DNA of 45,202 nt. Source: a virus. The notes under the pieces were generated by a model. It worked only from the letters and a program-made list of their open reading frames with translations, was not told the DNA's origin and ran no database searches. Below are positions 1,411 to 22,283 of this stretch, piece by piece. The translations under genes were made by a program, and so were the position numbers. Within the stretch, counting starts at the first letter, position 1, and the number at the start of each line of letters is the position of its first letter. The stretch spans positions 1-45,202 of the IMG/VR virus record IMGVR_UViG_3300009610_000020, one strand, 5' to 3'.

Positions 1411-1413
1411 TGA

Positions 1414-2250: not shown

Positions 2251-5200
2251 TACTGCTCCCCAGTGATGCTGTTAGTCAGGCCAGTGCCATCGTAGTGATC
2301 GAACATGTCCTTGCTGAGATACCTGTCATGAAGGGTCTGAAAGTAGGTGTTACCTTCGATCAGCTGCATGACGCCATTCTGGAACTCAGACTTCAGATCA
2401 GCATTGCTCTTGGCGTTGATGTCACCAGACGATGCGGTCTGAGCGGACCTGAAGTTGTAGTTCGTGTTGTCACCAGCGCGCTGAGCAAGCTCGGTCTTGA
2501 TGGTCCCACGAAGATTCAGGTACTGCTGAAGACCAGTGATGTCAGGTCGGTTCTGAAGTTCCTTGGCCGTGGCGATCTGCGTCAGGGCCAGAGCCTGACG
2601 GTCATCCTTGCTAGGGTCGAAGGTATTGTACGCTTCGGTCCATGATGCATTGTAGTAAGGATTGGCAGTCTGACCATCGAGGTTGTACGGATCACTCAGC
2701 GTCTGAACGAAAGCCTTCTTCTGTGCAAGCAGGTCTTCAGCGCCCTTGTCGTTCAGGGTGGTGAGTCCCCGCTGGAACAACTGGGCATTCAGTCCGTTCA
2801 TGAACGCTGTGTATTCCTGCCAACCAGTGTTGGCCTGAGACTTCTTCCATGCGTCAGAGGCAGACATCTTGGTGCGCTGACCTGAGATTACCTGCTGCAT
2901 GTAAGCAGTCTGACTGAAGTCTCCACCGCCCTGATCCCCAATGATCACCCCGGCAAGGTCTGGATACTGATCAATCAGATCCTTGAACTTGTTGGCGGTG
3001 TTCTGCCCGGCCCTGGTGGCCGGGATGCCAGGGATGTTGTTCTGGCTGAGAGACGTGGTGAATGCGTAAGCAGAGTCACCGTACTTGGCATAGAAGTTCT
3101 GATCAGCAGTCTGTGGATTGGCAGCCTGCATGGTCTTGTACTGGTCACGATAGAACTGATACGGGTCCTGGAATGAGACACCGAATGGCAGAACGACAGT
3201 GCCTGAGAAGAGTGCCTTCAGGAACACCATGTTCTCTCCGCGCTTCTTTGCCTCCGCCATGGTGGGCGGAGTCGAACGGAGCCCATTGCGGTACATGTAG
3301 TCCTGCTGCTGCATAGCCTGGAGAGTCATCTGTGAAGCAGTACCATCGTCATTGGACTTGATGATACTGTGAACGATGCCACCCCACAGAACATCACTGT
3401 CATGTGCAGTGATGCCAGTTGGCAGGATTCCAATCTTCTGGAAGAAGTCACCAACCTGAGGCGGAGCCTTCACGGCGAAGTGATTCGCTGCCATCTGAAC
3501 AATTGGACCTTCACCAGGGTTGTACCATGGATCATTCTGGAGTGCGATGTTGAGCGAGTTCAGAGGGATTCGCGCTACTGGAGTAGCGCCAAGACCAAGT
3601 GCATCACTCATATACTTCGGGAGCTGGAACCTGATATAAGTGTCGCTCTTGTCAACGAGAACCTTCTTGCCAGTGGCAGGGTCAATGCTATAACCATTGA
3701 CAATGGGATCATTGTTGTAGGTGTAGGCGTGACCGATGCGAGCGGGAGAAGTGTAAAGCATCCCAGCTCGGGCAAGGGTCTCAGGCTTGGCAGCGAGAAT
3801 GCGACCCCAACGGTTGAATGCCTCTTGCATCGGACCGAAGAACGGTGCAATGAACCTCATCGAGTGAGTGATCTTAGTCTCAAAGTCCATGTTGTAGGTG
3901 AACTTCTTAACATCACGCAAGGCCAACTGCCTTGCCGAGGTGGCAATCTGATCGAGGTGATCATTGCTCAGGTGAGTAAGACCCTGAGCCTCAGCCATCT
4001 TGTACATGTCCTGGACATGGCCCTCATAGAGCTTCGCGAACAGAGGATTACGGGAGAGAACATTTCCAGGAGTCTCAGCCATCATGCGGTACCACTTACT
4101 GATAACCTTGTCGATAGCCTGAATGGTTCCACCACGACCAAGAGCATAGTTGCTGCGCTCACCATTGACAGTGGGACGATATGCCTGCTCAGTCTCACTC
4201 ATCAGCTTTGCGATAGTCGCATCATCCTTGTTGTCAGCGACTGCCTGACGCAGTTCACCGAGCTTAGGACTGGCTACAGGAAGCTGATAGTTGACCTCAC
4301 TGTGGATACGGTCGGCCATTTCGTGAGCCGACATGTTGTCCAGCTGGAGATCCTTGAAATACTGACGACCAGCACCGTTCAGCCACTTCTCAATGTCATT
4401 GACGGAACCGCCCTTGACGGCGATCATGGCAGCAGGGTCAGAGGCTATCTGCCTCTGAACAACGCGAAGCCACGAACCGAGGTGACCACCCTGAGTGGGA
4501 TCAATCTCAACCCACCCAGGATTACCACGAATGCCAGACTGGATGTGGGATGCAGTGCCCCCGAGGGCACTGTCATATGTGCTTCGACCAGAGTTCATAT
4601 CAAGGAACATCTGACCCTGGGCACCTTCACCAGCACCAGCGACAACCTGACCATTGGGGTTGATGACACGCTTGTCAGTCAGCTTTCGACGAGCCTGAGT
4701 AAGGTTCGCCTCAGCAAGCTTGGCACCATCGAGCTGGGATTCGATCTGCTCGATACCCTGCCTGTGGAACAGTGCCATAGTGGCCTGTCGCGCAGCAGTC
4801 TTGTTGGACTGCGGAATGTACGACTGAACAGTGGCAAGGCGAGTCTTTGCCAGTTCAAGGTCATCCTGAAGCTGACTCACGGCAGACTTGTAAGCAATGT
4901 TCTTGGCATCAAAGCCAGTGGCGTCATATAGGAACCTGCTATTGGCGTTGCCAGCCTTTCGGGCTGCCTGACCGTACAAACCCTGCATGGTTCGACTGGC
5001 CATGCTGTGAGCGCCAAGCATTGCAACCTGACCAGCAAGGTCATCAGCAATAGCCCTCGGCCCATAGCCGAGTCGAAGGTGAGCCTGAAACTTCCACAGG
5101 TGGTTGAACAGACCAGAGAAGGACTGGTAACCATCAGCGGCCTTCTGGGCCGCGAGTCCGGGGCGAAGACCAGTAGTAATTCCCTGAGCTGCCTCATCAG

Positions 5201-12826: not shown

Positions 12827-13043
12827 GTCTGACTCCCATTGCCATTAGTGTGCACTAGTTGCCAAAGAGCGAAGCTCGGCAGTGTATGCACAAGCGATGG
12901 CAGTAACCGGAACAAGAACTATCCGGGGGAATGATTCCCAAATGAAAGAAGGGACCATGAGAGGAGCCCCTTAGGGCTCCCTACCATGCTGAGAATATGG
13001 TACGGATAATACCTTATCAGCCCGGATTATAATGCTATATGTA

Positions 13044-13176
13044 GCAGCCCCTTAAGGGCTGCATTATATGATGATACATTTCTATATATATTGGGAATCC
13101 TAAGGGATTCCCATACAGTATAACACCAGTGTAATTGTTTATCACTTAACCCATTTCCTAGGGGAAATGGATTATA
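13044..13176 (-). promoter_or_regulatory. Candidate late promoter array: -10 boxes abutting hairpins
   Basis: On the minus strand three -10-like boxes are each followed at 0 to 4 bases by a perfect short hairpin. TATAAT at 13171-13176 precedes the hairpin 13151-13170. TATACT at 13117-13122 precedes 13093-13112. TATAAT at 13063-13068 precedes 13044-13062. The stems differ in sequence but share length (7-8 pairs) and 4-5-base loops. They point at the terminase gene about 220-350 bases downstream. No good -35 box is seen, so a helper factor or an AT-rich extended promoter would be needed. Confidence 0.45.
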
Positions 13177-13537
13177 TCGTTCAATGCATTGTTACGAATT
13201 CACAAGATGTACTAGGTTAATGTATAGTAGTATATATACAAGATCTTGTTATCACCCTGTCTAAGTGGTGTTCCGGGACCTTCTGCAACAGCTCCAGGGA
13301 AAATTTTACCTTCAATGTGACGAACATCACACTCCTGGAGGGTCATATGAAGATCATCTACACTCTACGTAACCAGTCATAATCAAAATGTAATACCCTC
13401 CCAGGGGACAGTTTATCCTGAGAAATTAAATTAGACTCACGAGTCCGAGTCCGATCGGAGTTTAAAAATGCCCGGGTTTGTCCTAGTTTGGTCGCGATTA
13501 TATGTACACACATGGAATGAATTGCAAAGGCATTGGA

Positions 13538-13719
13538 ATGTGTGCAAACAATAGCCATGCATAGGCATTCTCTGTGCGTGCACTAATGAATGTGAATAGA
13601 TATGAATTGATTCGTATGTATATGCATGCGTGTGCATTGATATGCTGAGCAGATGATTGATATGGTCAAGCTTCATTCACATATGTGAACGACAATCATG
13701 TATGGGAACCGTGCGTGCA
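13538..13719. other. Candidate replication origin with GTGCGTGCA-like iterons
   Basis: Four related nonamers occur on the plus strand: ATGTGTGCA (13538-13546), GTGCGTGCA (13574-13582), GCGTGTGCA (13628-13636) and GTGCGTGCA (13711-13719). They lie in non-coding DNA next to an AT-rich stretch and a 14-base palindrome at 13676-13689. Iterons beside AT-rich DNA are typical of origins. Spacing is irregular and there is no initiator gene nearby, so this is only a candidate. Confidence 0.3.
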
Positions 13720-13912
13720 CCACCTAGCCCATGGTCACAGTCCGGCAACAGCACTGGACATGCACTCACCACATGTGCTAGCACGCGCAGGCGTGCTCAT
13801 CTATGGACACGTGCACTGATCACCGCTACCATCACGTGACCTGTCCGTGTCCTTGCCGTGCTGTACCCGCGCGTCTGACACGAGGATGGTTGTCATCAGA
13901 AGGAAGCACGGC

Positions 13913-13925
13913 GAACACAGCGAAC
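13913..13925. repeat. 13-base direct repeat, copy 1 (copy 2 at 14313-14325)
   Basis: GAACACAGCGAAC occurs here and again exactly 400 bases downstream at 14313-14325. Both are preceded by ACGG within a few bases. The second copy lies just upstream of the rRNA-like leader, so the repeats may mark two early promoters or a protein-binding site. No -10/-35 pair of good quality is visible at either. Confidence 0.4.
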
Positions 13926-14363
13926 GGTGATCAGCCGCAAGACAGAGGGTTGACTTACTCAGTAACGGTGTGCCAAGCTTTCCTCACCGCCCCACAAGAT
14001 CGCAGCAAGGCTCACTCGCTAACGGCTTCGGCCGGAGTGACCAACTGAGTGAATGAGGGGCACGGGCAGGACAGTGAGATCAGTTGCCACGGTAGGCCAT
14101 ACAGCGCCAAAGGGTAATTCCCGCGGAAGTGCGTCAGTCGAATCGTGGAACCCTCCGAATCTGCCTCAGGTGGTCCATTGGTCCACATGGGATATGAAGC
14201 TGGGCAGTTCCTGTGTCCACCGGCTCTCATGTGCATTCCATAATCACCTGGCAGCTTGACAGCAACACCAAACACTGCAAGACTCGCATCACAGCAAGCC
14301 ACTGGGGCCACGGAACACAGCGAACCTTAAGCGACTGTGTATACGATCCGGATGGACTGCACC

Positions 14364-14422
14364 TTGAGAACTCAATAATGAGCAGCTAGTCATCAATCAT
14401 CCGTGCCCCTTGTGGGGGCACG
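14364..14422 (+). promoter_or_regulatory. rRNA-like antitermination leader (boxA plus GC hairpin)
   Basis: TTGAGAACTCAAT at 14364-14376 matches the boxA region I know from actinobacterial rRNA leaders (mycobacterial TTTGAGAACTCAATAG). It is followed by a perfect GC-rich stem, CGTGCCCC with GGGGCACG (14402-14422), as in rRNA leaders where a GC hairpin lies downstream. In rRNA operons boxA loads NusB/NusE and makes polymerase resist terminators. Here it would let early transcription pass the many hairpins downstream. A weak TGTGTATACG sequence just upstream (about 14336-14345) could be an extended -10. Confidence 0.6.
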
Positions 14423-14695
14423 CAATGAGTGTGACAGAGCCGAAAACCTCAACTGGCCACACGGTCAGCGGCAGAGTAGGCGAACCACTCTAGGTGACTA
14501 GTATTCTCTCTCTTTCCCTGCAAGGGGGATGAGCAGACAGCGAGATCGACTCACCAGTGTGAATCAGTTGTCACCTCTCAACGATGTGGCATAGGAGAAT
14601 CCTGGTGGGAGTCGCAAGACTCAAGAGGCATGAATCACTGTCCGTTCTTCCTCCGGACCACTCAAACGTGTGTGTTGAGTGGTTGGGGAGAGATG

Positions 14696-14887
14696 ATGAA
14701 GTACACAATCAACTGGTCCAAGGGTGGCTACAGCCACACGGTGTACAGTGACAGCTGCAACGGTGCTGTGCATGCTGCTGAGGCCATTTCCAAGGACACT
14801 CGTGTCGTCGCAGTCAACACTGAGACGGGCGCTGAGCGCCTGTACGTTGACGGCCTGATGCAGTGGACGGACAGTGATTTCCTGTGA
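14696..14887 (+). CDS. First early gene, small unknown protein
   Basis: 63 residues starting MKYTINWSKGGYSHTVYS. I chose the second of two adjacent ATG codons because GGGGAG lies at the best distance. A longer frame from 14630 has no ribosome site. The sequence alternates polar and hydrophobic residues, as in a small beta-rich protein, and has no recognised domain. An eight-pair hairpin (CCACTCAA with TTGAGTGG, 14658-14682) sits directly before the ribosome site, the pattern seen before the other early genes. The stop overlaps the next start. Confidence 0.7.
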   Translation: MKYTINWSKGGYSHTVYSDSCNGAVHAAEAISKDTRVVAVNTETGAERLYVDGLMQWTDSDFL

Positions 14888-15204
14888 CTATCGTGTATTA
14901 CGGTGGACGTGAACAGCATCTCGGCAGTGAGCAACTGTACCGGCATGTGAAGGCTATCGACGCCTACAACAGGACCGGCAAGGGTGTGATGGACATCACT
15001 GATGATGTCGCACAGACCATCGCTGCGATGTGGCACTCGCCCAATGGCGAGTCAACCTGGCTGAGCACCCGTGGCATTGTCACGGAAGCCATGACCATCG
15101 GTGACTTCTGCACTGAGAAGGAATACAGTGAGCTGTCCACTGAGGACACGCTGCTGATTGACTATCTTCAGAGCTACATCGAGAACAAGCAGGAGCGGGC
15201 ATGA
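14884..15204 (+). CDS. Early protein of unknown function, 106 residues
   Basis: Starts at a GTG overlapping the previous stop (GTGA). Sequence MTIVYYGGREQHLGSEQLYR, then helical and acidic toward the end (TEDTLLIDYLQSYIENKQ). No metal-binding or catalytic motif was recognised. It is coupled on both sides: its stop overlaps the ATG of the next gene. Early position suggests a host-takeover protein, but nothing in the sequence shows a target. A perfect hairpin, ACTCGCC-CAAT-GGCGAGT (15035-15052), lies within it. Confidence 0.7.
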   Translation: MTIVYYGGREQHLGSEQLYRHVKAIDAYNRTGKGVMDITDDVAQTIAAMWHSPNGESTWLSTRGIVTEAMTIGDFCTEKEYSELSTEDTLLIDYLQSYIENKQERA

Positions 15205-15413
15205 GCAGGACTGTACTGTTTGTGCATCACTGCGACCGGTGTGGGGTGGAGTTCGACCCCAATCCCCACTGGAACACCCCCATGATCGCTTCGCTGAGTT
15301 ACATGGTGAAGCGCAACGGCAGTGGCACCAAGATTCATGGTGAAGAGAAGGAATTCTGTCAGGACTGCTCTGGCAAGTTCCTCAAGTTCATGAAGAGTAA
15401 GCTTGAAGTGTAG
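15201..15413 (+). CDS. Small early zinc-binding protein
   Basis: 70 residues. HHCDRCGVEFDPNPHWN near residue 9 and EFCQDCSGKFLKFM near 51 give two CxxC pairs, a likely zinc ribbon. The basic C-terminus (FMKSKLEV) could touch nucleic acid. It overlaps the previous gene as ATGA. It ends in TAG, which is the first codon of a 58-base repeat that leads into the next gene. Confidence 0.75.
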   Translation: MSRTVLFVHHCDRCGVEFDPNPHWNTPMIASLSYMVKRNGSGTKIHGEEKEFCQDCSGKFLKFMKSKLEV

Positions 15414-15468
15414 GTGAACAGCATGGTTCACACAATGTGTGAGCTGTGTGGTCTACCTAGACCAATCA
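15411..15468 (+). repeat. 58-base leader repeat, copy 1, with tandem hairpins
   Basis: Identical to 16673-16730. It contains the hairpins GTGAAC-AGCATG-GTTCAC (15414-15431), ACAC-AAT-GTGT, and GGTCT-ACCT-AGACC (15450-15463), then leads to GGGAGAGAG and the ATG at 15483. The stop codon TAG of the upstream gene forms its first three bases in both copies although the two upstream genes differ. It therefore behaves as a mobile or recombined leader cassette. Confidence 0.85.
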
Positions 15469-15482
15469 CAAGGGAGAGAGAA

Positions 15483-15908
15483 ATGAACAAGGACATTGCT
15501 GGCCGTTGGGTTGCCGCTCTCAGGAGCGGCGAATACCAGCAGGGTACCACCGAGCTGGAAAACATCTCGTTCGTGGACGGCAAGAGCACGTTCTGCTGTC
15601 TCGGCGTGCTGTCGCACATCGCCTACAGTGAGGGTGTGTGCGATCGGTCGGAAACCGATCGCGGCTACGCTCGCTACACCGACACTTTCGAGGAGTGGCA
15701 GTCATCCATCCTGCCCGTGCCCGTTCGCATCTGGTCGGGTATGCATGACCAGTACGGCACCCTGATCGAGGGTGACAGTCGATCGCTCACCGCCATGAAC
15801 GATGGTGGTGAAGAGTGGGACAAGGAGGCGCACGAGTACGTCATGCTCGGACCCCTGTCCTTCGCTGAGATCGCCGACTATATCGAGGCGAACTGGGAAC
15901 AGCTGTAG
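15483..15908 (+). CDS. Early protein with FCCLGVL motif, paralogue 1 of 3
   Basis: 141 residues from the ATG preceded by GGGAGAGAG. The open frame back to 15414 runs through the leader repeat and is not used here. MNKDIAGRWVAALRSGEYQQ, then FCCLGVLSHIA near residue 37, and a C-terminal LSFAEIADYIEANW. This arrangement is shared with 17582-18004 and the truncated copy at 16731. It belongs to a family that I have seen often in phages but whose function I do not know. The Cys pair could bind metal. An eight- to nine-pair intragenic hairpin lies at 15640-15662. Confidence 0.75.
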   Translation: MNKDIAGRWVAALRSGEYQQGTTELENISFVDGKSTFCCLGVLSHIAYSEGVCDRSETDRGYARYTDTFEEWQSSILPVPVRIWSGMHDQYGTLIEGDSRSLTAMNDGGEEWDKEAHEYVMLGPLSFAEIADYIEANWEQL

Positions 15909-15926
15909 TACATGACCACCTATGGT

Positions 15927-16027
15927 GCTCAGCCTAAGCTGAGCATTGTAGCGGCATCATGTGCCGGACGATGAAGGCTGTAGGTTTGTTCTCAAACCTA
16001 CTCCAATTGCTTTCAGGTAAAGCAATT
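15927..16027 (+). promoter_or_regulatory. Four-hairpin early leader
   Basis: Four perfect hairpins in a row: GCTCAG/CTGAGC (15927-15944), CGGCA/TGCCG (15952-15966), GTAGGTTTG-TTCT-CAAACCTAC (15980-16001, nine pairs) and AATTGCTTT-CAGGT-AAAGCAATT (16005-16027, nine pairs). The last ends two bases before GGGAGAGAG, the ribosome site of the gene at 16040. The sequence differs from the other early leaders, yet the layout of stacked stems then ribosome site is the same. Confidence 0.7.
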
Positions 16028-16039
16028 AGGGAGAGAGAA

Positions 16040-16276
16040 ATGGCCGAAGGGTATATCCCCATCAAGGCAGAGGATCTTCACCCCGGATACGTGGTGCTGA
16101 TTCCTCCGGCCAGTGGTAGGCACCGCACTCGCGGTGCCATTGATGGGTCATCTCACATGACTGTTCGTGAGGTGACCATCGATACCGCTGGGCTGGGGTA
16201 TGTCGAGGTCACGTTCACTGACTGTTCCATGGTCGTGCGACGTGACCTCAGGGTGAACGTGGTGGTCCACCGGTGA
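16040..16276 (+). CDS. Small early protein, beta-rich, unknown function
   Basis: 78 residues from the ATG after GGGAGAGAGAA. MAEGYIPIKAEDLHPGYVVL, then alternating hydrophobic strands (MTVREVTIDTAG, YVEVTFTDCSMVV, LRVNVVVHR) that suggest a small barrel. No catalytic motif recognised. Its stop overlaps the GTG of the next gene. The longer frame from 15959 would run through the leader hairpins and is rejected. Confidence 0.7.
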   Translation: MAEGYIPIKAEDLHPGYVVLIPPASGRHRTRGAIDGSSHMTVREVTIDTAGLGYVEVTFTDCSMVVRRDLRVNVVVHR

Positions 16277-16503
16277 TAACACGTTCGATGGTCACCCTGG
16301 GCAAGCGATGCAACAACGACAAGCGTTGGGTCACCATGAAGGTTGGTGGTCAACGTATTGGTGTCATCGTAAAGTCCAGGAAAAGAAGCACTGAGTATCT
16401 GTGGCGTGAACTGGGCTTCGACACAAAGTGGAGCCGTGCCAGCGGCGACAGTGAGGCGCTTGCACGCCTCCTTCTCCGAATCAATGGGGGACACAGTGGA
16501 TGA
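16273..16503 (+). CDS. Small basic early protein, unknown function
   Basis: 76 residues from a GTG overlapping the previous stop. Rich in Lys and Arg in the first 50 residues (TLGKRCNNDKRWVTMKVGG, KSRKRSTEYLWRELGF), so nucleic-acid binding is possible. The last third is helical (SEALARLLLRING). No recognised domain. It overlaps the next gene by a few bases. Confidence 0.6.
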   Translation: MITRSMVTLGKRCNNDKRWVTMKVGGQRIGVIVKSRKRSTEYLWRELGFDTKWSRASGDSEALARLLLRINGGHSG

Positions 16504-16675
16504 GTTCATCAAGGTTGTTTCTGACGACCTTGAGAGCGTTGAGGCAGCAGAGAAGAAACTCAAGCTGTTGCGTGCTATCCTCATTCGTGAGGGCAAGGAT
16601 GAGATCTTCGAACTGAAGATCCAGCCCAACGACTTCAAGCGAGGCAAGCACTTGATCGCGCTGTACAAGCGCTAG
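16496..16675 (+). CDS. Small helical early protein, unknown function
   Basis: About 59 residues if it starts at the GTG at 16496, which has GGGGGA upstream. An ATG at 16484 without a ribosome site is the alternative. VDEFIKVVSDDLESVEAAEKK and then KLKLLRAILIREGKDEIF form a likely coiled coil or helical hairpin, followed by a basic end (FKRGKHLIALYKR). The stop TAG is the first codon of the second 58-base repeat. Confidence 0.6.
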   Translation: MDEFIKVVSDDLESVEAAEKKLKLLRAILIREGKDEIFELKIQPNDFKRGKHLIALYKR

Positions 16676-16730
16676 GTGAACAGCATGGTTCACACAATGT
16701 GTGAGCTGTGTGGTCTACCTAGACCAATCA
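16673..16730 (+). repeat. 58-base leader repeat, copy 2, joined to a gene fragment
   Basis: Exact copy of 15411-15468, with the same hairpins. In copy 1 the repeat leads to GGGAGAGAG and a start codon. Here it ends abruptly at 16730 and runs straight into the middle of a paralogous gene, so ribosome site and start are missing. That junction shows where a deletion took place. Confidence 0.85.
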
Positions 16731-17015
16731 GGTTTCTGCTGCCTCGGCGTGCTGTCGCACATGGCCATGCAGGAAGGTGTGTGCGAGCGTCGTGTGCTGG
16801 CTAACGACTGGGAAGCATCGTACGGCAACGAGGGTGAGGAAAGCCGCACTGGCCTCATTCCGCTGAGTGTCCAGACGTGGTCTGGACTCAAGAGCGACGA
16901 GGGTGTATTCATGCACCCTGACGGGGATCCCGGGAGCCTGGCCAGCCTGAACGACTACGGCAGCTCGTTCGAGTACATCGCTGACATGATCGAGGAATTC
17001 TGGGAGAGTCTGTAA
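16731..17015 (+). pseudogene. 5'-truncated copy of the FCCLGVL early gene, paralogue 2 of 3
   Basis: Starts in mid-gene at GFCCLGVLSHMAMQEGV and continues to the normal end (FEYIADMIEEFWESL). Compared with 15483-15908 and 17582-18004 it lacks about the first 40-50 codons and the ribosome site. The frame is open upstream into the repeat to a GTG at 16701 (MSCVVYLDQSGFCC), but no ribosome site precedes it. The rest has no stop codon or frameshift, so the deletion is recent or the fragment is still made. Confidence 0.75.
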
Positions 17016-17030
17016 AACCCAATGCATGAG

Positions 17031-17080
17031 TATGGTGCAGGGCCTTGAGCCCTGCGCTGTATCCTTACATTGGTAAGGAT
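17031..17080 (+). promoter_or_regulatory. Intergenic tandem-hairpin element A
   Basis: Follows an ATGCATGAGTATGGT motif. Stem 1 is GCAGGGC-CTTGA-GCCCTGC (17037-17055). Stem 2 is ATCCTTAC-ATTG-GTAAGGAT (17061-17080). The same layout recurs after the next genes (18026, 18658, 19407) with changed but still paired stems. No T-run follows stem 1, so it is not a classical terminator. It could be an RNase cleavage site or a protein-binding RNA element between cistrons. Confidence 0.75.
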
Positions 17081-17084
17081 AACT

Positions 17085-17158
17085 AAGGGAGAGAGCTGTG
17101 GAGTTTGCTCCGCAAACCCACGGCCATTCCTTTCATTGAAAGGAATTGGAATGACTGA
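17085..17158 (+). promoter_or_regulatory. Leader cassette with upstream ORF and hidden ribosome site, copy 1
   Basis: About 74 bases identical to 18711-18784. It holds GGGAGAGAG, a GTG start of a 13-codon ORF, and a hairpin GTTTGC-TCC-GCAAAC extended by GTGG/CCAC. A second hairpin, TTCCTTTC-ATT-GAAAGGAA, has a 3' arm containing the AAAGGAA ribosome site for the ATG at 17151. The upstream ORF stops (TGA) at the loop of that hairpin, so a ribosome ending there would open it. This is a plausible translational switch. Confidence 0.7.
17098..17139 (+). CDS. Leader peptide (upstream ORF), copy 1
   Basis: GTG start, 13 residues MEFAPQTHGHSFH, then TGA. The distance from GGGAG to this GTG is the same as from GGGAG to the true ATG of the neighbouring early genes (for example 15483 and 17582), which supports real initiation here. 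An identical peptide is encoded at 18724-18765 in front of an unrelated gene. The peptide itself may matter less than the ribosome's passage through the hairpin. Confidence 0.5.
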   Translation: MEFAPQTHGHSFH

Positions 17159-17495
17159 CATCGACGTGGCAGCTCTGCGCGCTCAGATTGAGGAGGAGTT
17201 GCGTGCCAAGATCGAGCAGGAGTTCGAGGACCGTGCATCTCAGGCGATGTCCATAACGGACATCTGCACTGAGCGTAACAGCGTGGTGACGACCGTTCAG
17301 AAGATCCTTGACGCTGCTGGCGTCAAGTCCATCAACGGGAACAGTCGCTTCAAGCTGTACGACCGTGGCGAGGTCATGCGTGCCATGATTCACAAGGACC
17401 GTCACCTGCTGGCCTACTACGGTCTGCTTCAGCAGGTTCAGGAGAAGAACGGTCTGCCTGTCACCCCGGACCCCGTCAAGGAGCCCGCTAAGTAG
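17151..17495 (+). CDS. Probable DNA-binding early protein
   Basis: 114 residues from the ATG after AAAGGAATTGGA. The N-terminus is a charged helix (AALRAQIEEELRAKIEQEFE). The middle, SITDICTERNSVVTTVQKIL followed by INGNSRFKLYDRGEVMRAM, looks like a helix-turn-helix with a wing. A Pro-rich tail ends it. It may be an early regulator. A longer frame from 17070 would read through the leader hairpins and is rejected. Confidence 0.65.
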   Translation: MTDIDVAALRAQIEEELRAKIEQEFEDRASQAMSITDICTERNSVVTTVQKILDAAGVKSINGNSRFKLYDRGEVMRAMIHKDRHLLAYYGLLQQVQEKNGLPVTPDPVKEPAK

Positions 17496-17515
17496 AACTG
17501 AAGCGTGAGAGTGAT

Positions 17516-17565
17516 CGAGCTGCATTGGCAGCTCGGTTGCTTCCTCATTTCAGTGTGATCTGAGG
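17516..17565 (+). promoter_or_regulatory. Tandem-hairpin early leader before paralogue 3
   Basis: Stem 1 is CGAGCTGC-ATTG-GCAGCTCG (17516-17535, eight perfect pairs). Stem 2 is CCTCA with TGAGG (17543-17565). GGGAGAGAG and the ATG at 17582 follow. The stem sequences do not resemble the other elements, but order and spacing do, including the ATTG loop shared with 17061-17080. Confidence 0.6.
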
Positions 17566-17581
17566 AGACTGGGAGAGAGAA

Positions 17582-18004
17582 ATGAACAAAGACATTGCTG
17601 ACCGTTGGGTTGCCGCTCTCAGGAGCGGTAAGTATGCCCAGACGCGTGGCTGCCTGGAGGTGGTCAAGGAGGAGGATGACACCCCTGTCGGTTTCTGCTG
17701 CCTCGGCGTGCTGTCGTGCCTTGCCGTCGAAGGGGGCATTGTTGAGCGGACAATCGATGAGCGTGGAGTCGCCGCAAGCTTCCACCCCAAGAACAGCGAC
17801 CCGTACTATGGGTCGATCTCCTTCCTGCCTGGTGTCGTTCGAGACTGGGCAGGAATCAATAGCGATGACGGCAGGTTCGGCGGGGTGAATGACAGCCTCA
17901 CCAGAATGAACGATGGTGAGAAAGAGCTTGACGGTACCATCGTCAACCAGAAGTCCTTCGCTGAGATCGCCGACTTCATCGAGCAGAACTACATGAGTCT
18001 GTAA
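17582..18004 (+). CDS. Early protein with FCCLGVL motif, paralogue 3 of 3
   Basis: 140 residues, MNKDIADRWVAALRSGKYAQ, FCCLGVLSCLAVEGG near residue 38, and C-terminal KSFAEIADFIEQNY. Closely related to 15483-15908, so the family was amplified in tandem. Two Cys in the central motif are conserved in all three copies. Preceded by GGGAGAGAGAA. Function unknown. The intragenic hairpin GCCGCTC-TCAG-GAGCGG seen at 15513 is kept here. Confidence 0.75.
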   Translation: MNKDIADRWVAALRSGKYAQTRGCLEVVKEEDDTPVGFCCLGVLSCLAVEGGIVERTIDERGVAASFHPKNSDPYYGSISFLPGVVRDWAGINSDDGRFGGVNDSLTRMNDGEKELDGTIVNQKSFAEIADFIEQNYMSL

Positions 18005-18025
18005 AACCCAATGCATGAGTATGGT

Positions 18026-18068
18026 GCAGGGCTCAAGGCCCTGCGCTGTATCCTTACATTGGTAAGGA
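18026..18068 (+). promoter_or_regulatory. Intergenic tandem-hairpin element B
   Basis: Stem 1 GCAGGGC-TCAAG-GCCCTGC (18026-18044) and stem 2 TCCTTAC-ATTG-GTAAGGA (18051-18068), after the same ATGCATGAGTATGGT motif as element A. The loop of stem 1 is changed relative to element A while the stem is kept. It precedes AAGGGAGAGAG and the ATG at 18088. Confidence 0.75.
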
Positions 18069-18087
18069 AGAACAAAGGGAGAGAGAA

Positions 18088-18643
18088 ATGAACATAGAGC
18101 GGATCGAGAAGGCTGCTGCTTTCCTGGAGCGGAGACTATACCTCAGCCTCCAACATCCTGACTGGTGAGCCTGGCTGGGACTACAGCGCCTTCAATGGCT
18201 ACAAAAAGGAGTGGGAGAAGTATCTCATCTCCGAGAAGGACATCTGGGAGAGCAGCACTGGCCGTCAGGTTGTCATCGATCATGAGCTTGTGATGGAGGG
18301 CAAAGCCTACACTGTTTTCCATGCACTGAACACTAGCGCTGCTAGCATGTCCACCAAGGTCGCATTCCTGGGTATCTACAGCAAGCTTCCGCCGAAGCCC
18401 AAGTACATCGACGGACGGCTGTACATCAGTGAGGACGGTAAGACTGTCCTCATGTACGCTGAGAAGGCTGGGAACAGCAATCACCCCGGCTTCCACCGTC
18501 TCAACAAGGACGGTAAGGAGTACCTGGGGTTGGTTGGTCACGGCAGCGTACCCTACTATGAGGAGGAGTACGGCAAGCTGACCGAAATCAAGGCCAGCAC
18601 CTACGGTGCCAGTGACAAGCTGGTGCAAGCTTCATTCGTCTGA
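18088..18643 (+). CDS. Early gene read in two frames (+1 frameshift), unknown function
   Basis: The ATG after GGGAGAGAGAA opens MNIERIEKAAAFLERR but stops after 26 codons. The +1 frame is open from about 18098 without any start codon until 18290 and reads like protein (GDYTSASNILTGEPGWDYS, then KKEWEKYLISEKDIWE). The natural product would be ...AAFLE joined to GDYTSASN... with the shift near 18127-18131. Options are a programmed +1 shift, an inactivating one-base insertion, or a sequencing error. Conventional calling from 18290 would lose the first half. The downstream part is beta-rich (LYISEDGKTVLMYAE). Confidence 0.6.
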
Positions 18644-18657
18644 TGCATGAGTATGGT

Positions 18658-18703
18658 GCAGGGCTTAAGGCCCTGCGCTGTATCCTTACATCAGAGAGAT
18701 GTA
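18658..18703 (+). promoter_or_regulatory. Intergenic tandem-hairpin element C
   Basis: Stem 1 GCAGGGC-TTAAG-GCCCTGC (18658-18676). Stem 2 is here a different helix, TACATC-AGAGA-GATGTA (18687-18703), in the position of ATCCTTAC/GTAAGGAT in elements A and B. It is followed by the second leader cassette. Confidence 0.75.
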
Positions 18704-18710
18704 TGGAATC

Positions 18711-18784
18711 AAGGGAGAGAGCTGTGGAGTTTGCTCCGCAAACCCACGGCCATTCCTTTCATTGAAAGGAATTGGAATGACTGA
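18711..18784 (+). promoter_or_regulatory. Leader cassette with upstream ORF and hidden ribosome site, copy 2
   Basis: Identical to 17085-17158 over about 74 bases, ending inside the first codons of the gene (ATGACTGA). Here it precedes a gene unrelated to the one behind copy 1, so the cassette is exchanged as a unit and is under constraint or recent copying. Upstream ORF 18724-18765, switch hairpin about 18752-18770, gene start 18777. Confidence 0.7.
18724..18765 (+). CDS. Leader peptide (upstream ORF), copy 2
   Basis: Same 13-residue peptide MEFAPQTHGHSFH as at 17098, starting at GTG after GGGAGAGAGCT and ending at a TGA in the loop region of the hairpin that contains the AAAGGAA ribosome site. 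Confidence 0.5.
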   Translation: MEFAPQTHGHSFH

Positions 18785-19391
18785 GTTCAACCGGCCCAAT
18801 GTCCTGCGCGTGCTAGCTGACGTGCTGGAGGAGGAGGCTGGAAACGACGCTGCGAAGGTTGCCGGTTTCAACATGGCCTCCTTTGTGAAGACCCCTCAGG
18901 CTGGCTCATTCCGAGAGGATGAGACTGAGATGGTCCTGGAGTCGGGCATGAGCCCGACCCTCTGTGGTACTCAGCTGTGTGTGGCTGGGTTCGCCACGCT
19001 GGCGCGGGGCTGGAAGTTCAAGTTCACCAAGCGCACTCCATACATGTATGGCGACTACTTTCTCACCAACACCACTTACATCAACCCTCAGGGGGTTGAG
19101 CAGAATGGTGAGCCGGACTGGGAGCTTGAGGGACGCCTGCACATGGGCATCTCCTCAACCAGCGCTGCCTATCTCTTCTATGCCACATTCGACGATGGCG
19201 AGACTGCCATCGAGATGCTGGAGGAGATGGTCAGGCTGAACCGTGACCTCACCCATGAGGAGATCTCAGAAATCAACATCGCCGGTCGCAAGCGTGCCGA
19301 TCCTAGCTATGGGGAGCCGTACGACTACCCTGACGAGGATGAGGATGAGTATGAGGACAGCGATTACTGCTGCTCCTACTGCAATCCCTGA
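18777..19391 (+). CDS. Early protein with CGTQLCVAGFATL motif, paralogue 1 of 2
   Basis: 204 residues from the ATG after AAAGGAATTGGA. LRVLADVLEEE near the start, CGTQLCVAGFATLA near residue 62, DDGETAIEMLEEMV near 140, and an acidic tail rich in Asp, Glu and Tyr that ends in CCSYCNP. The order of motifs is shared with 19476-20201. The paired Cys of the central motif and the Cys-rich end could bind metal. Family and function unknown. It may be an inhibitor that mimics nucleic acid with its acidic tail, which is only a guess. Confidence 0.7.
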   Translation: MTEFNRPNVLRVLADVLEEEAGNDAAKVAGFNMASFVKTPQAGSFREDETEMVLESGMSPTLCGTQLCVAGFATLARGWKFKFTKRTPYMYGDYFLTNTTYINPQGVEQNGEPDWELEGRLHMGISSTSAAYLFYATFDDGETAIEMLEEMVRLNRDLTHEEISEINIAGRKRADPSYGEPYDYPDEDEDEYEDSDYCCSYCNP

Positions 19392-19406
19392 TGCATGAGC
19401 ATGGTT

Positions 19407-19452
19407 CAGCGCCCTTAGGCGCTGGGCTGTGTCCCTACATCAGAGAGATGTA
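19407..19452 (+). promoter_or_regulatory. Intergenic tandem-hairpin element D (compensatory changes)
   Basis: Stem 1 is CAGCGCC-CTTA-GGCGCTG (19407-19424). Compared with GCAGGGC/GCCCTGC of elements A-C both arms have changed together, which is direct covariation. Stem 2 TACATC-AGAGA-GATGTA (19436-19452) is as in element C. The same ATGCATGAGCATGGT motif precedes it. It is followed by GGGAGAGAG and ATG 19476. Confidence 0.8.
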
Positions 19453-19475
19453 CGGAAGAGATACTGGGAGAGAGA

Positions 19476-20201
19476 ATGACTGACGCTCAAGAGGGTATCG
19501 TCACCTTCAAGCCGACTCCTCAGGTTGCCCGTCTGCGTGTTCTGGCGGACATCCTTGAGGAGAAGGAGAAGGCCGAAACGCTCAAGATCAAGTCTGCCTT
19601 CTACATGGGCGACTGGATGTCTGTGCCGCTGTGGTACGGTCCTGACAATGGGAGCGATGACAAGACCGTTTTCGAGGGTGAGGAGTTCATCCTCAAGACT
19701 GCTTCTCAGGCTTCAGAGTGTGGTACTCAGCTGTGTGTGGCTGGGTTTGCCACCCTGGAGGCTGGCTACAGCGTCAAGTACGCCAAGGCTAAGCAGGAGA
19801 TGTATGGTGGGCACATTTCCCACTACATCAGTGCGACATACTTCGACCCGAAGGGTGAAGCCCTTCCCAAGGGCGTTCGGCCTTCCTGGGAGCTGATCGG
19901 TGCCGAGGTGCTTGGCCTGAACCCGTATCACGCTCACGTGCTGTTCTTCAGCACGGAGGACGATGGCGAGCAGGCCATCGAAATCCTCACCAAGCTTGCG
20001 CTTGGCGTCGAGATCACTGACGATGAGTGGCTTCAGTACAAGCGGAACCACAACATCGACAACATGTACGAGGGGTACGCGGAGGCCGACTGGAGTGGTC
20101 CGTACGCTGGTGACCGTTATGCTTGTCAGCGGGACTGGGAGGAGAACGGTGACGAGGAGGACTGGGAGGAGAGGTGCAACTGCGGTTGCATGGATGACTA
20201 G
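19476..20201 (+). CDS. Early protein with CGTQLCVAGFATL motif, paralogue 2 of 2
   Basis: 241 residues. RLRVLADILEEKEKAETLK near the start, ECGTQLCVAGFATLEAG near residue 82, EDDGEQAIEILTKLALG near 160, and an acidic, aromatic tail ending ERCNCGCMDD. Related to 18777-19391 over the whole length but well diverged. ATG follows GGGAGAGAG. The Cys-rich C-terminus recurs in both, so metal binding is possible. Confidence 0.7.
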   Translation: MTDAQEGIVTFKPTPQVARLRVLADILEEKEKAETLKIKSAFYMGDWMSVPLWYGPDNGSDDKTVFEGEEFILKTASQASECGTQLCVAGFATLEAGYSVKYAKAKQEMYGGHISHYISATYFDPKGEALPKGVRPSWELIGAEVLGLNPYHAHVLFFSTEDDGEQAIEILTKLALGVEITDDEWLQYKRNHNIDNMYEGYAEADWSGPYAGDRYACQRDWEENGDEEDWEERCNCGCMDD

Positions 20202-20213
20202 TAGGTAAAAGTT

Positions 20214-20233
20214 CCAGCGTCTTCGGACGCTGG
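20214..20233 (+). terminator. UUCG-capped hairpin, probable terminator
   Basis: CCAGCGTC-TTCG-GACGCTGG, eight perfect pairs closed by the very stable UUCG loop, 13 bases after the stop of the gene at 19476-20201. The following GCTTTAAGT is only weakly T-rich. It ends the block of repeated early cistrons and comes directly before a structured leader. Confidence 0.6.
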
Positions 20234-20241
20234 GCTTTAAG

Positions 20242-20352
20242 TCAGGCTGTCTAATGCAATCCGGCTGGTCAAGAGAAGGTTCTCTCCCGTCTCTTGACTC
20301 AGTTCGCTCAGATTGAGCGAACGTCTCCCCGGGGAGTAAAGGGACAGCCTGG
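20242..20352 (+). ncRNA. Multibranched structured leader RNA
   Basis: An outer helix of nine perfect pairs (CAGGCTGTC 20243-20251 with GACAGCCTG 20343-20351, extendable by G-U pairs) encloses three hairpins. These are GTCAAGAGA/TCTCTTGAC (20268-20298), GTTCGCTCA-GAT-TGAGCGAAC (20302-20322) and the palindrome CTCCCCGGGGAG (20325-20336). Twenty-five bases after the outer helix closes comes AAAGGAGG and the ATG at 20378. It therefore has the size and place of a riboswitch-like or protein-binding leader. I recognise no known RNA family. Confidence 0.6.
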
Positions 20353-20377
20353 CCTATGGCTCAGCGAAAGGAGGATA

Positions 20378-20842
20378 ATGGCAGTACCTGTTAAAGAGAT
20401 TAACCTGGTGGTTAAGGTACTGAACGATCCCGAGTTCGACGGTTGGACGGAGAAGGATCTAGCCACCAAAATCGTCGAGGCGATTAACCAAGAGAGAGAG
20501 AACACTAAACGATTCGTCGTTGTCGCTTCGCTGAAGTGGCCCCACGACGATGACCACCACATGTGGGCTGCTGGTCCGTTTAACACGGAACGACAAGCCG
20601 AACAGGTTGGTGAAAAGTTCTCTCATGACCCTTATACGAAACGTGGCGAGGGCAGGTGGAAAGTCGTTCCGATCCTTTCTCCGGCTGTCAATCCGGCACG
20701 TACAGCCTGGGACACCATTCGTCCTGCTGTCAGCGGTGAGCCCTGCTGTTCCCTGCATCACGGCTGGATCAAGGATGACCTTGACCGGTGGACATGGCTC
20801 CGGCCCCCAGGAGGGGCCGATCACTGGAGAGAAGGTTGGTAA
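20378..20842 (+). CDS. Early protein behind structured leader, unknown function
   Basis: 154 residues from the ATG preceded by AAAGGAGG, the strongest ribosome site of the region. MAVPVKEINLVVKVLN, then a region with WPHDDDHHMWAAGPF near residue 50 that resembles a small alpha/beta fold (FVVVASLKWP, TERQAEQVGEKF). The C-terminal half is Pro- and Trp-rich. The His/Asp cluster may bind metal. The longer frame from 20294 would run through the structured leader and is rejected. Stop overlaps the next ATG (TAATG). Confidence 0.7.
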   Translation: MAVPVKEINLVVKVLNDPEFDGWTEKDLATKIVEAINQERENTKRFVVVASLKWPHDDDHHMWAAGPFNTERQAEQVGEKFSHDPYTKRGEGRWKVVPILSPAVNPARTAWDTIRPAVSGEPCCSLHHGWIKDDLDRWTWLRPPGGADHWREGW

Positions 20843-21024
20843 TGTCCATCACTGGACTCTGGCAGAAGATGAAGTGTGGTACCTGCCTCCATACGAGGCA
20901 AGACCATCTCACCAAGCACATCAGGAACATTCCCCATCAGGGTGGCTGTCGTCAGCTCACCTGCCGCTGCACCAAGTACCAGGAAGTTGAGAGCATTGGG
21001 AATCAAGATCACACTGAAGAGTGA
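20842..21024 (+). CDS. Small zinc-binding protein
   Basis: 60 residues MSITGLWQKMKCGTCLHTRQ, then CRQLTCRC near residue 36. CGTC plus CxC and several His (HTRQDH, KHIRN) suggest one zinc site. Starts at the ATG overlapping the previous stop. Related in style to the next gene, which also has a CxxC and a CxC pair. Confidence 0.65.
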   Translation: MSITGLWQKMKCGTCLHTRQDHLTKHIRNIPHQGGCRQLTCRCTKYQEVESIGNQDHTEE

Positions 21025-21037
21025 TGCGCCGAAGTCG

Positions 21038-21148
21038 ATGCACTGCGCTAACTGTGGCCATGCCGACTATGAGCACAAGCGTCGCGGAGTTCTCACTCCC
21101 GGCAGGGAGTGCAACGACTGTCCTTGCCAGTTCTACCGTGAGCACTGA
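21038..21148 (+). CDS. Very small zinc-ribbon protein
   Basis: 36 residues MHCANCGHADYEHKRRGVL, then ECNDCPCQFYREH. CxxC, a His, then CxxCxC give a compact zinc ribbon of a kind common among actinophage small proteins. The ribosome site is weak (GAAG), so the start is uncertain, but the Cys pattern supports coding. Confidence 0.55.
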   Translation: MHCANCGHADYEHKRRGVLTPGRECNDCPCQFYREH

Positions 21149-21151
21149 CCA

Positions 21152-21256
21152 ATGAGCATTGTCTCTCTGTACTGCTACGTTGGTCTTGGCATGTTCATTG
21201 GCGCACTTGTGTGCGCCGTACTGGTGGTCATTGATGGAAACAGGACTGATCAATGA
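21152..21256 (+). CDS. Single-span membrane micro-protein
   Basis: 34 residues. Residues 2-27 (SIVSLYCYVGLGMFIGALV and on) form one hydrophobic span. A short polar tail DGNRTDQ follows. It starts three bases after the previous stop, and its own stop overlaps the next ATG (ATGA), so it is part of a coupled chain. It may be a membrane-acting early protein, for instance for superinfection control. That is inference from topology only. Confidence 0.5.
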   Translation: MSIVSLYCYVGLGMFIGALVCAVLVVIDGNRTDQ

Positions 21257-21618
21257 AGGTAGATGAGCTTCAGATAGGCAAGACCTACCATCCCACTGGC
21301 ATGGCGTTCGGCCCGAATGAACGTCGCACTGTTGTGTTCAAGGGCAGCAGCCTTACTGTTGCCACCAATGAGCATGGTAATGAGATGGTCATCCGTCACA
21401 ACACTCCAAACGATTCGGTTGACTATATCGAGGTGAAGAAGTTCTTCCAGGTCGCTGGAGAGTACATGTACGGGGACAGCAGCTTCAGGTACAAGATCAT
21501 CGAAGTCAATAATGACAGGCGACTCGCTGCCGCTTCTGTCCATGATATTGATGGACGCATCACCCGCTACTGCGGATTCTCCTCCACCCAGTTCGACGCT
21601 ATGTCCAAGGTCAACTGA
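21253..21618 (+). CDS. Early protein of unknown function, 121 residues
   Basis: MKVDELQIGKTYHPTGMAFG followed by alternating strands (RTVVFKGSSLTVATNE, DSVDYIEVKKFFQVAG, RYKIIEVNNDRRLAAA) suggests a small all-beta protein. No catalytic residues recognised. Overlaps the gene before (ATGA) and the gene after (TGATG). Confidence 0.7.
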   Translation: MKVDELQIGKTYHPTGMAFGPNERRTVVFKGSSLTVATNEHGNEMVIRHNTPNDSVDYIEVKKFFQVAGEYMYGDSSFRYKIIEVNNDRRLAAASVHDIDGRITRYCGFSSTQFDAMSKVN

Positions 21619-21833
21619 TGGTCGAACCCCGAGTGAAGCTCAGGTTCGCGATCGACCATGGAAACTGGGCTGCTAACCTGCTGGACAAGTGTGACTACGA
21701 GATTGTCTACCTTGACCCAAACCTGTACTCGTACGATCAGCGATGGGTTGTACGCGTCTTTCGTAAAGGTAATGAGTGGCTGGAGCTTTGGTGTGATGAA
21801 GACTTCAGCAACAAGACCCTGATCGAGCTTTGA
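21618..21833 (+). CDS. Small early protein, unknown function
   Basis: 71 residues MVEPRVKLRFAIDHGNWAAN, then YEIVYLDPNLYSYDQRW and WLELWCDEDF. Acidic and aromatic, with a mixed alpha/beta pattern. It is the last gene of the first plus-strand block and ends eight bases before a strong bidirectional terminator. Confidence 0.65.
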   Translation: MVEPRVKLRFAIDHGNWAANLLDKCDYEIVYLDPNLYSYDQRWVVRVFRKGNEWLELWCDEDFSNKTLIEL

Positions 21834-21840
21834 TAGTGGA

Positions 21841-21860
21841 GCAGGGGCTAAGGCCCCTGC
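21841..21860. terminator. Bidirectional terminator between converging genes
   Basis: GCAGGGGC-TAAG-GCCCCTGC, eight perfect pairs, between the plus gene ending at 21833 and the minus gene ending at 21885. No long T-run on either side, but the position between convergent genes supports termination. Confidence 0.65.
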
Positions 21861-21884
21861 CTCGCTACCTCACTTCAATGAGGA

Positions 21885-22283
21885 CTATGCCCATTCAAAT
21901 CCCTTGCCATACACCCAGTAGATGTCAGCATCTAGCTGATCCCCCTGGCTGTCAGCCATGGTGAACACCTTCACCTTCCGGGTGCTGTCGTAGGCGGAAT
22001 AGGTTGACAGGGGATTCGTCACAAGGTGAACCCTGTTGTCCTTCATCTTGTATGTCAGCTCAAGCAGGACGCGACGGACACGATCATCAAAGTCAGCCTT
22101 GGCCTTGACGGCAAGAGCCTTCTTGTCCCTCTCTCCCTGCTTGCGTCGCTCCTCGATAGTGGCAGCCAACTGGTCTGCCTGATCCTGACGCTTGCGACGT
22201 GCAGCACGGACACGCTGACGGATAGCGTGAGCCTCCGCAAGCTGCTTGGTTTCCTCTTCAGTAAAGTAGACCTGTTCGGTCAT
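21885..22283 (-). CDS. Coiled-coil protein beside sigma-like factor, unknown function
   Basis: 132 residues. Residues 1-70 form a highly charged helix (EEETKQLAEAHAIRQRVRA, then RRKRQDQADQLAATIEERR). The second half is beta-like (RVHLVTNPLSTYSAYD, KVFTMADSQGD, IYWVYGKGFEWA). GAAGGA lies seven bases before ATG. The stop of the sigma-like gene is three bases upstream, so they are co-transcribed. Confidence 0.7.
   Translation of the reverse strand: MTEQVYFTEEETKQLAEAHAIRQRVRAARRKRQDQADQLAATIEERRKQGERDKKALAVKAKADFDDRVRRVLLELTYKMKDNRVHLVTNPLSTYSAYDSTRKVKVFTMADSQGDQLDADIYWVYGKGFEWA

Follow-up and report, generated by a model that had tools for sequence, protein, structure and literature searches.

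Why should two genes that are unrelated to each other be preceded by the same 74-nucleotide (nt) leader cassette, and what might that cassette do? The question is raised by IMG/VR virus record IMGVR_UViG_3300009610_000020, whose 45,202 nt (positions 1 to 45,202, one strand) make up the stretch analysed here and are referred to throughout as the window. An earlier sequence-only reading of the window had described the cassette as a short upstream open reading frame (ORF) ending in a hairpin that hides the ribosome site of the real gene, and had proposed that ribosomes on the short ORF open this hairpin. The answer that we tentatively favour, while stopping short of calling it probable, is that a 55-nt insert within the cassette converts initiation at a start-associated ribosome site, GGGAGAGAG, into a lower, translation-coupled initiation of the gene behind it, and does so within a scheme in which each early gene has a pseudoknotted leader of its own.

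The cassette carries a double hairpin between a ribosome site and its gene

The two copies of the cassette, at 17085-17158 and 18711-18784 on the plus strand, match exactly over 74 nt, and a family scan found the genes behind them to be unrelated (weak phrog_12569 for the first, phrog_889 for the second); on both counts the sequence-only reading was right. It had overlooked that the repeat goes on upstream of the cassette in diverged form (17022-17070 versus 18643-18691), this diverged part belonging to a leader that is found before most genes of the region. Each copy comprises the ribosome site GGGAGAGAG (17087-17095 and 18713-18721), a 13-codon ORF beginning with GTG, and a hairpin in which the Shine-Dalgarno (SD) sequence of the real gene is hidden. 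Between GGGAGAGAG and the ATG of the gene stands the 55-nt insert, at 17096-17150 in copy 1.

The insert folds as two back-to-back hairpins, with the GTG in the first and the SD in the second. Hairpin 1 (CTGTGG.GTTTGC-TCC-GCAAACCCACGG) is predicted to have 12 bp with a bulged A and a TCC loop, and holds the GTG in its 5' arm; it occupies 17096-17123 in copy 1 and, with identical sequence, 18722-18749 in copy 2. Hairpin 2 (CCATTCCTTTC-ATT-GAAAGGAA(T)TGG), at 17124-17149 and again identically at 18750-18775, has as its 3' arm GAAAGGAA, which is the SD of the real gene; the AAGGA within it (17140-17144 for the gene at 17151) can be read directly. That a hairpin hides the ribosome site is thus upheld for hairpin 2, but the earlier description had missed hairpin 1, which buries the GTG. 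The folding energy of the insert is -26.6 kcal/mol, compared with a mean of -11.7 kcal/mol for shuffled sequences (z -5.5), and none of 1000 shuffles was as stable; the structure therefore goes beyond what chance would give. When longer stretches of 86 nt were folded, z was only -2.1 and -2.5.

The insert is absent from two relatives

Two related loci, L004 (IMGVR_UViG_3300025504_000001) and L017 (IMGVR_UViG_3300025928_000033), contain orthologues of both cassette genes without the 55-nt insert, and there GGGAGAGA stands directly before the ATG (L004 3698 and 5995). Within the window, GGGAGAGAGA stands immediately in front of ATGACTGA at the sibling gene 19476, which carries no cassette. The real starts are ATG 17151 and ATG 18777, as the orthologous proteins begin at the same place without an insert. 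Judged by this comparison of sequences, the extra 55 nt of the cassette is an insertion. A coding N-terminal extension was considered and rejected: the main frame does run open across the cassette (ORFs 17070-17495 and 18699-19391), but the orthologous proteins begin at the residues that correspond to 17151 and 18777, and at ribosome-site distance there is no start codon in frame.

Further copies of the cassette were found neither by exact patterns in IMG/VR, where three matches were attributed to chance from their context, nor by blastn in 50,697 phage records, nor by exact pattern in 84,980 bacterial and archaeal species genomes. A search for the cassette in other phages, which the sequence-only reading had suggested as a check, thus returned none from the phage records or IMG/VR.

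The start-associated site places the upstream GTG where a start codon is expected

In order to gauge what GGGAGAGAG predicts, the leader strands of 23 loci were searched for strict sites with the pattern AAGGGG?AGAGA, which gave 143; some loci are near-identical and the counts are not independent (L015 is the contig of L004, and L010/L021, L022/L025 and L008/L012/L014 look near-identical). At every one of the 143 a start codon lies where one is usually seen, and in 138 cases it opens an ORF of 40 or more codons, 10-20 nt from the first base of the site, with 115 at 13 or 14. The remaining five are the two cassette copies (GTG at 13), the window site at 18075 (an ATG followed by 26 codons, belonging to a frameshifted gene) and short ORFs in L091 and L096. 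The cassette GTG lies at offset 13 from the first A of AAGGGAGAGAG, and the modes among the sites are 13 and 14, in agreement with the earlier remark that the spacing from GGGAG to the GTG equals that of sibling starts.

The putative upstream ORF, GTGGAGTTTGCTCCGCAAACCCACGGCCATTCCTTTCATTGA, encodes MEFAPQTHGHSFH and runs from the GTG (17098-17100) to a TGA, occupying 17098-17139 in copy 1 and, with the same sequence, 18724-18765 in copy 2; its length of 13 codons is as first described, and the placing of its TGA in the loop of hairpin 2 was roughly correct, the three bases being the last of the loop and the first two of the 3' arm. Because 138 of the 143 sites start ORFs and the GTG is at a modal offset, the site predicts initiation at the cassette GTG, and on these grounds initiation at the upstream ORF is plausible. 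Three of its last six codons encode histidine; a histidine-sensing leader peptide would be speculation.

Most genes of the region have a pseudoknotted leader

Nearly every small early gene has a folded RNA leader of its own. In most of them GGGAGAGAG is preceded by a long hairpin, P2, and a short one, P3, the P3 loop being complementary to a strand located 5' of P2 (CCAATG/CATTGG at 17017; CTGAT/ATCAG at 18638 and 19386). In the leader of the 17151 gene (17017-17077, 49.9 bits), P1a at 17019-17024 (CCAATG) pairs with P1b at 17068-17073 (CATTGG), P2 spans 17030-17062, and P3 joins 17063-17067 to 17074-17078. The leader of the 18777 gene (18638-18698, 53.2 bits) has a near-identical P2 and the same cassette; both P1 strands differ between the two leaders and the pairing is kept. 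A covariance model of P1 and P2, for which these two leaders and the leader before the cassette-less 19476 gene (19386-19447, 54.2 bits) were used, gave eight matches in the window, all on the plus strand and five of them not used in building, and none in 22 control loci (289 kb). Matches not used in the model precede the genes at 18088 (18006-18066, 50.2 bits), 17582 (17496-17557, 39.7 bits) and 15483 (15408-15464, 38.4 bits); the others are an orphan copy of the 15408 element, without GGGAGAGAG and before a truncated gene (16670-16726, 38.6 bits), and a weaker match adjoining a minus-strand gene (21821-21882, 26.2 bits).

The pairing between the P3 loop and the upstream strand was examined by swapping strands between leaders. 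Among 112 non-redundant leaders, 82 could be parsed and 30 could not; in the 82, a leader's own upstream strand scored 12.5, compared with 8.4 for strands swapped in from other leaders, with 28 leaders beating at least 95% of swaps and 12 beating fewer than half. A cruder test found at least four complementary bases in 50 of 91 leaders versus 20.9 for swaps (maximum 32 in 300 rounds). For the alignment, 63 of the 82 leaders were kept (at least 0.65 versus swapped controls, and a joint of 2-11 nt), 36 of these were aligned, and 25 rows made up the final set after 11 had been dropped for a P1 strand in another register or for long P3 loops, mostly of the TCAC type. In these 25 rows P1 was 95.3% paired, with slid registers at 16.5-48%, and all six of its pairs were changed on both sides; P2 was 89.5% paired, with 11 of 11 counted pairs changed on both sides. 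P1 and P2 thus covary as RNA, at 17 of 17 counted pairs. These covariation figures rest on rows partly chosen for pairing, and the swap test (82 leaders) and the cruder test (91 leaders) are therefore less biased.

P3 and the genomic context were assessed in 88 strong full-length matches drawn from three scans (8 of 8, 20 of 29 and 60 of 79 model matches), partial, antisense and below-28-bit matches having been dropped and the one 26.2-bit window match kept. The stems of P3 averaged 4.08 in their own leaders and 2.71 when swapped (maximum 3.44 in 500). A start-associated site lies no more than 20 nt away in 75 of the 88, and the other 13 have no ribosome site within 60 nt. The stop codon of the upstream ORF overlaps P1a in 33 of the 84 matches with a clear upstream ORF, and in 71 of the 84 it is within 10 nt of the element's start. 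The window shares the element with Streptomyces phages of the subfamily Beephvirinae. Rfam 15 returned no non-tRNA match to it at gathering, and only weak unrelated ones at E<=5 or 0.5; a known Rfam element in the window was rejected on this basis, and the leader looks like an undescribed RNA fold.

Relatives fill the same slot with hammerhead-like and other elements

L017, the sigma factor of which is 73% identical to that of the window, carries seven type II hammerhead-like leaders at 12900-17100 (model positions 1-66, E 2e-4 to 0.023, 26.7-34.6 bits). CUGANGA and CGAAAC occur in all six alignments shown, and the catalytic core and three stems of a predicted ribozyme are present. These leaders come directly after stop codons and before AGGGAGAGAG, one having an extra hairpin between, and the sole match to the pseudoknot model in this locus is partial (34 nt). 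The same set recurs in L102, a near-identical contig, with six Rfam matches at E<=0.1 and seven cores by pattern. L103 and L106 hold two hammerhead-like matches each together with pseudoknot-type leaders in the same contig; each gives one weak full-length match to the pseudoknot model (20.9 bits), and CTGAAT/ATTCAG can be made out by eye before L106 7247. L101 (IMGVR_UViG_3300048837_000975, 125,690 bases) has six hammerhead-like cores in about 4.4 kb of its minus strand (reverse-complement positions 130-4418), each lying, by eye, between a stop codon and the next gene, and no match to the pseudoknot leader model. L004 has a repeated tRNA-like element (3607-3670 and 5121-5175) in which a T-arm, GGGAAGTTCAACTCTTCCC, was recognised by eye inside a GTCCGG/CCGGAC stem; it gave no Rfam tRNA match at gathering. 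The window's own leaders gave no hammerhead match (RF02276) at gathering, nor at E<=5 within 14600-22000.

Because a pseudoknot, a hammerhead or a tRNA-like leader can stand before one gene family in different phages, the slot is exchangeable. Since relatives fill it with hammerhead-like ribozymes, the role of the leader most likely lies in RNA processing or in insulating each gene. From the sequences we infer a per-gene processing or insulating module gated by upstream ribosomes, in which the start-associated site would give each gene strong initiation, the terminating ribosome of the previous gene would cover P1a, and the leader would separate or protect each gene's message. Having no invariant bases, the pseudoknot itself may be recognised by its shape, by a nuclease or as a block to one, rather than act through a ribozyme core.

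Proposed translation-coupled initiation at the cassette

How would the insert act within such a scheme? Ribosomes recruited by GGGAGAGAG would start at the GTG at some rate, and in translating the short ORF would unfold both hairpins; they would stop at the TGA at 17139, then reinitiate at, or hand over to, the SD and the ATG 11 nt downstream. Direct, high-rate initiation would thereby become lower and coupled to translation of the upstream ORF. A crude test of this gating was made with ViennaRNA, the 5' arm of hairpin 2 being blocked as if by a ribosome. In copy 1, the predicted mean unpaired probability of the SD AAGGA rose from 0.18 to 0.85. A similar layout, of unrelated sequence, occurs at L004 5255-5319, where GGGAGA is followed by a 7-codon TTG ORF that ends at 5287, then by the hairpin TCTCCC-GAA-GGGAGA, which has the next ribosome site as its 3' arm, and by an ATG at 5317.

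Several findings weigh against translation-coupled initiation. No GTG start occurs among the 138 start-associated ORFs (125 ATG, 13 TTG), the upstream GTG is paired inside the 5' arm of hairpin 1, and GGGAGAGAG is itself predicted to be partly paired (mean unpaired 0.39 and 0.24). By an arithmetic estimate, random sequence has a chance of about 9% of a start codon at offset 13 or 14, so that the upstream ORF alone is not significant; and since the copies are identical, comparing them gives no sign of selection acting on the 13 codons and allows no covariation or codon test. In copy 2, blocking the 5' arm is predicted to leave the SD paired (0.23 to 0.24), apparently held, in these folds, by pairing with downstream coding sequence. 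The wider leader scheme is affected as well, in that every hammerhead match falls below the Rfam gathering cut-off (26.7-34.7 versus 37 bits) and not a single column of the pseudoknot element is invariant, a point against its being a ribozyme built around a large conserved core. The original proposal that ribosomes on the upstream ORF open the hairpin therefore survives in part: in the predicted folds the SD is hidden, and is freed in copy 1, but the GTG is paired and the SD of copy 2 is not freed. By these folding predictions, translation-coupled control of the cassette genes is only partly supported.

Extended to the subfamily, the proposal would be that the early messages of Beephvirinae-like phages carry an RNA module for every gene, each anchored on the stop codon of the gene before, with the type II hammerhead and the previously undescribed stop-overlapping pseudoknot interchangeable, and that ribosomes terminating upstream control the cleavage, protection or initiation of the gene that follows; the cassette would then be a derived version in which the 13-codon ORF supplies the gating ribosome. 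We regard this wider proposal as rather doubtful.

Alternative explanations

A real possibility is that structure alone matters, the hairpins lowering or delaying initiation or protecting the 5' region of the message because they bury the near-start and the SD, with the 13 codons incidental and any translation of them without effect. The pairing of both the GTG and the SD in the predicted fold speaks for this, as do extra tandem hairpins without an ORF that lie upstream of GGGAGAGAG elsewhere (window 16028, L004 5171-5235 and L106 8720). Those hairpins, however, precede the ribosome site, whereas the ones in the cassette and at L004 5255-5319 stand between site and gene, and a start codon lies at the modal distance.

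Alternatively, the insert could be a recombination scar, in which the end of a foreign leader (hairpins, SD and ATGACTGA) was joined behind GGGAGAGAG and then copied to the second gene by exchange between near-identical leaders, with no regulatory purpose. The region is rich in partial duplications and broken genes, the identity of the copies implies a recent event, and no relative with the insert was found. Against a scar stands the exceptionally stable double hairpin (z -5.5) with a well-spaced SD, kept identical before two different genes, and we consider this explanation improbable.

Very improbable, finally, is a two-state switch in which the pyrimidine arm of hairpin 2, which can pair with GGGAG too, would engage either the downstream SD or the upstream GGGAGAGAG so that one site is open at once and translation of the upstream ORF is unneeded: the arm does pair with GGGAG in the minimum-energy fold of copy 1 (86 nt) and in that of copy 2, and in copy 1 freeing either site costs only 1.7-2.2 kcal/mol, but the cost in copy 2 is 5.6-7.0 kcal/mol, the favoured fold varies with the length folded, any purine-rich SD could pair with such an arm, and no ligand or protein is indicated.

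Genome and gene neighbourhood

Both ends of the record share an identical 123 bases, from which the virus genome is probably circularised. Its terminase is about 64% identical to those of Streptomyces phages of the subfamily Beephvirinae, among them Manuel, Immanuel3 and WRightOn. The cassettes sit among small rightward genes at 14.6-21.9 kb. The gene behind copy 1 (17151-17495, plus strand) encodes 114 amino acids, its weakly matched family phrog_12569 is of unknown function, and it has the same start residue as its orthologues in L004 and L017; the gene behind copy 2 (18777-19391, plus strand) encodes 204 amino acids and matches phrog_889, likewise of unknown function, with orthologues in the same two loci. 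Searches for relatives of the 17151-gene protein in IMG/VR and the phage records, and for sigma-factor relatives in bacterial genomes, were fruitless.

Partial duplications and broken genes abound in the region (the truncated copy at 16673, the frameshift at 18088 and repeat families D2-D10). At 16673-17015, the 15411-15468 leader occurs a second time, identical at 58 of 58 bases, lacking GGGAGAGAG and fused to an N-terminally truncated paralogue. The gene at 18088-18643 is frame-broken behind a normal leader, with 26 codons in frame 0 followed by the homologous body in frame +1; a pseudogene, an assembly error and a frameshift site are all conceivable.

Other kinds of leader were also seen. 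A long leader in L006 (6352-6513 of the reverse complement) has a 12-bp outer stem (GGATGCACAGGG/CCCTGTGCATCC) around an inner structure and precedes a AAGGGGAGAG site; with the similar leaders of L008, L009, L010, L011 and L013, this kind is seen in several Streptomyces phages. Leaders at L004 5171-5235, L106 8720 and window 15992-16027 contain rows of short GTTGGTTTC-GCA-GAAACCAAC hairpins, and near-identical hairpins of this type recur in different phages.

Relation to described systems and significance

As far as the passages on these sites in Pope et al. (2011, PMC3203893) go, the closest described system is that of the Start-Associated Sequences (SAS) and extended SAS (ESAS) of cluster K mycobacteriophages, with which position is shared, but not sequence or RNA structure. 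The SAS, with a 13-bp consensus GGGATAGGAGCCC, lies just before the starts of right-arm non-structural genes; part of the SAS are preceded by inverted repeats, for which the authors, in the same passages, saw little support as RNA hairpins (PMC3203893). The sites described here are alike in being short repeats before start codons (143 of 143 strict sites, at 10-20 nt); they read AAGGGAGAGAG or AAGGGGAGAGA, and so differ from the cluster K consensus. Unlike the ESAS as characterised in those passages, the upstream element here covaries as RNA and holds a pseudoknot.

Perreault et al. (2011, PMC3088659) reported type II hammerheads clustered around ardA, in a region of Agrobacterium that also contains phage genes, and the relevant section of that paper calls the purpose of one such arrangement unknown. 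Hammerheads of this type occupy the same slot, from stop codon to ribosome site, in L017, L102, L103 and L106, whereas the window's own leaders have a different fold and no Rfam match. The cassette also resembles leader-ORF translational coupling and reinitiation, as outlined in the relevant part of PMC4833913, in that a short ORF with its own ribosome site ends at an SD-hiding hairpin; it is unlike the systems outlined there in that its putative short ORF has been inserted after a start-associated site and duplicated before two unrelated genes. In the available text of the paper on phage Abafar, of the same subfamily (PMC11536984), the words hairpin, repeat, terminator and 'ribosome binding' are absent, and no description of these leaders was found in the open-licence PMC literature, a body that excludes most subscription papers and all bioRxiv preprints.

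If the scheme is correct, a group of phages, cultured Streptomyces phages among them, would use interchangeable RNA modules to cut or insulate their early transcripts one gene at a time, which would give tandem phage hammerheads a natural and testable role. The pseudoknot would represent a new RNA family, each of its three helices having support from pairing and Rfam having no entry for it, and the cassette would be a natural case of a short ORF set inside a leader, retuning single genes.

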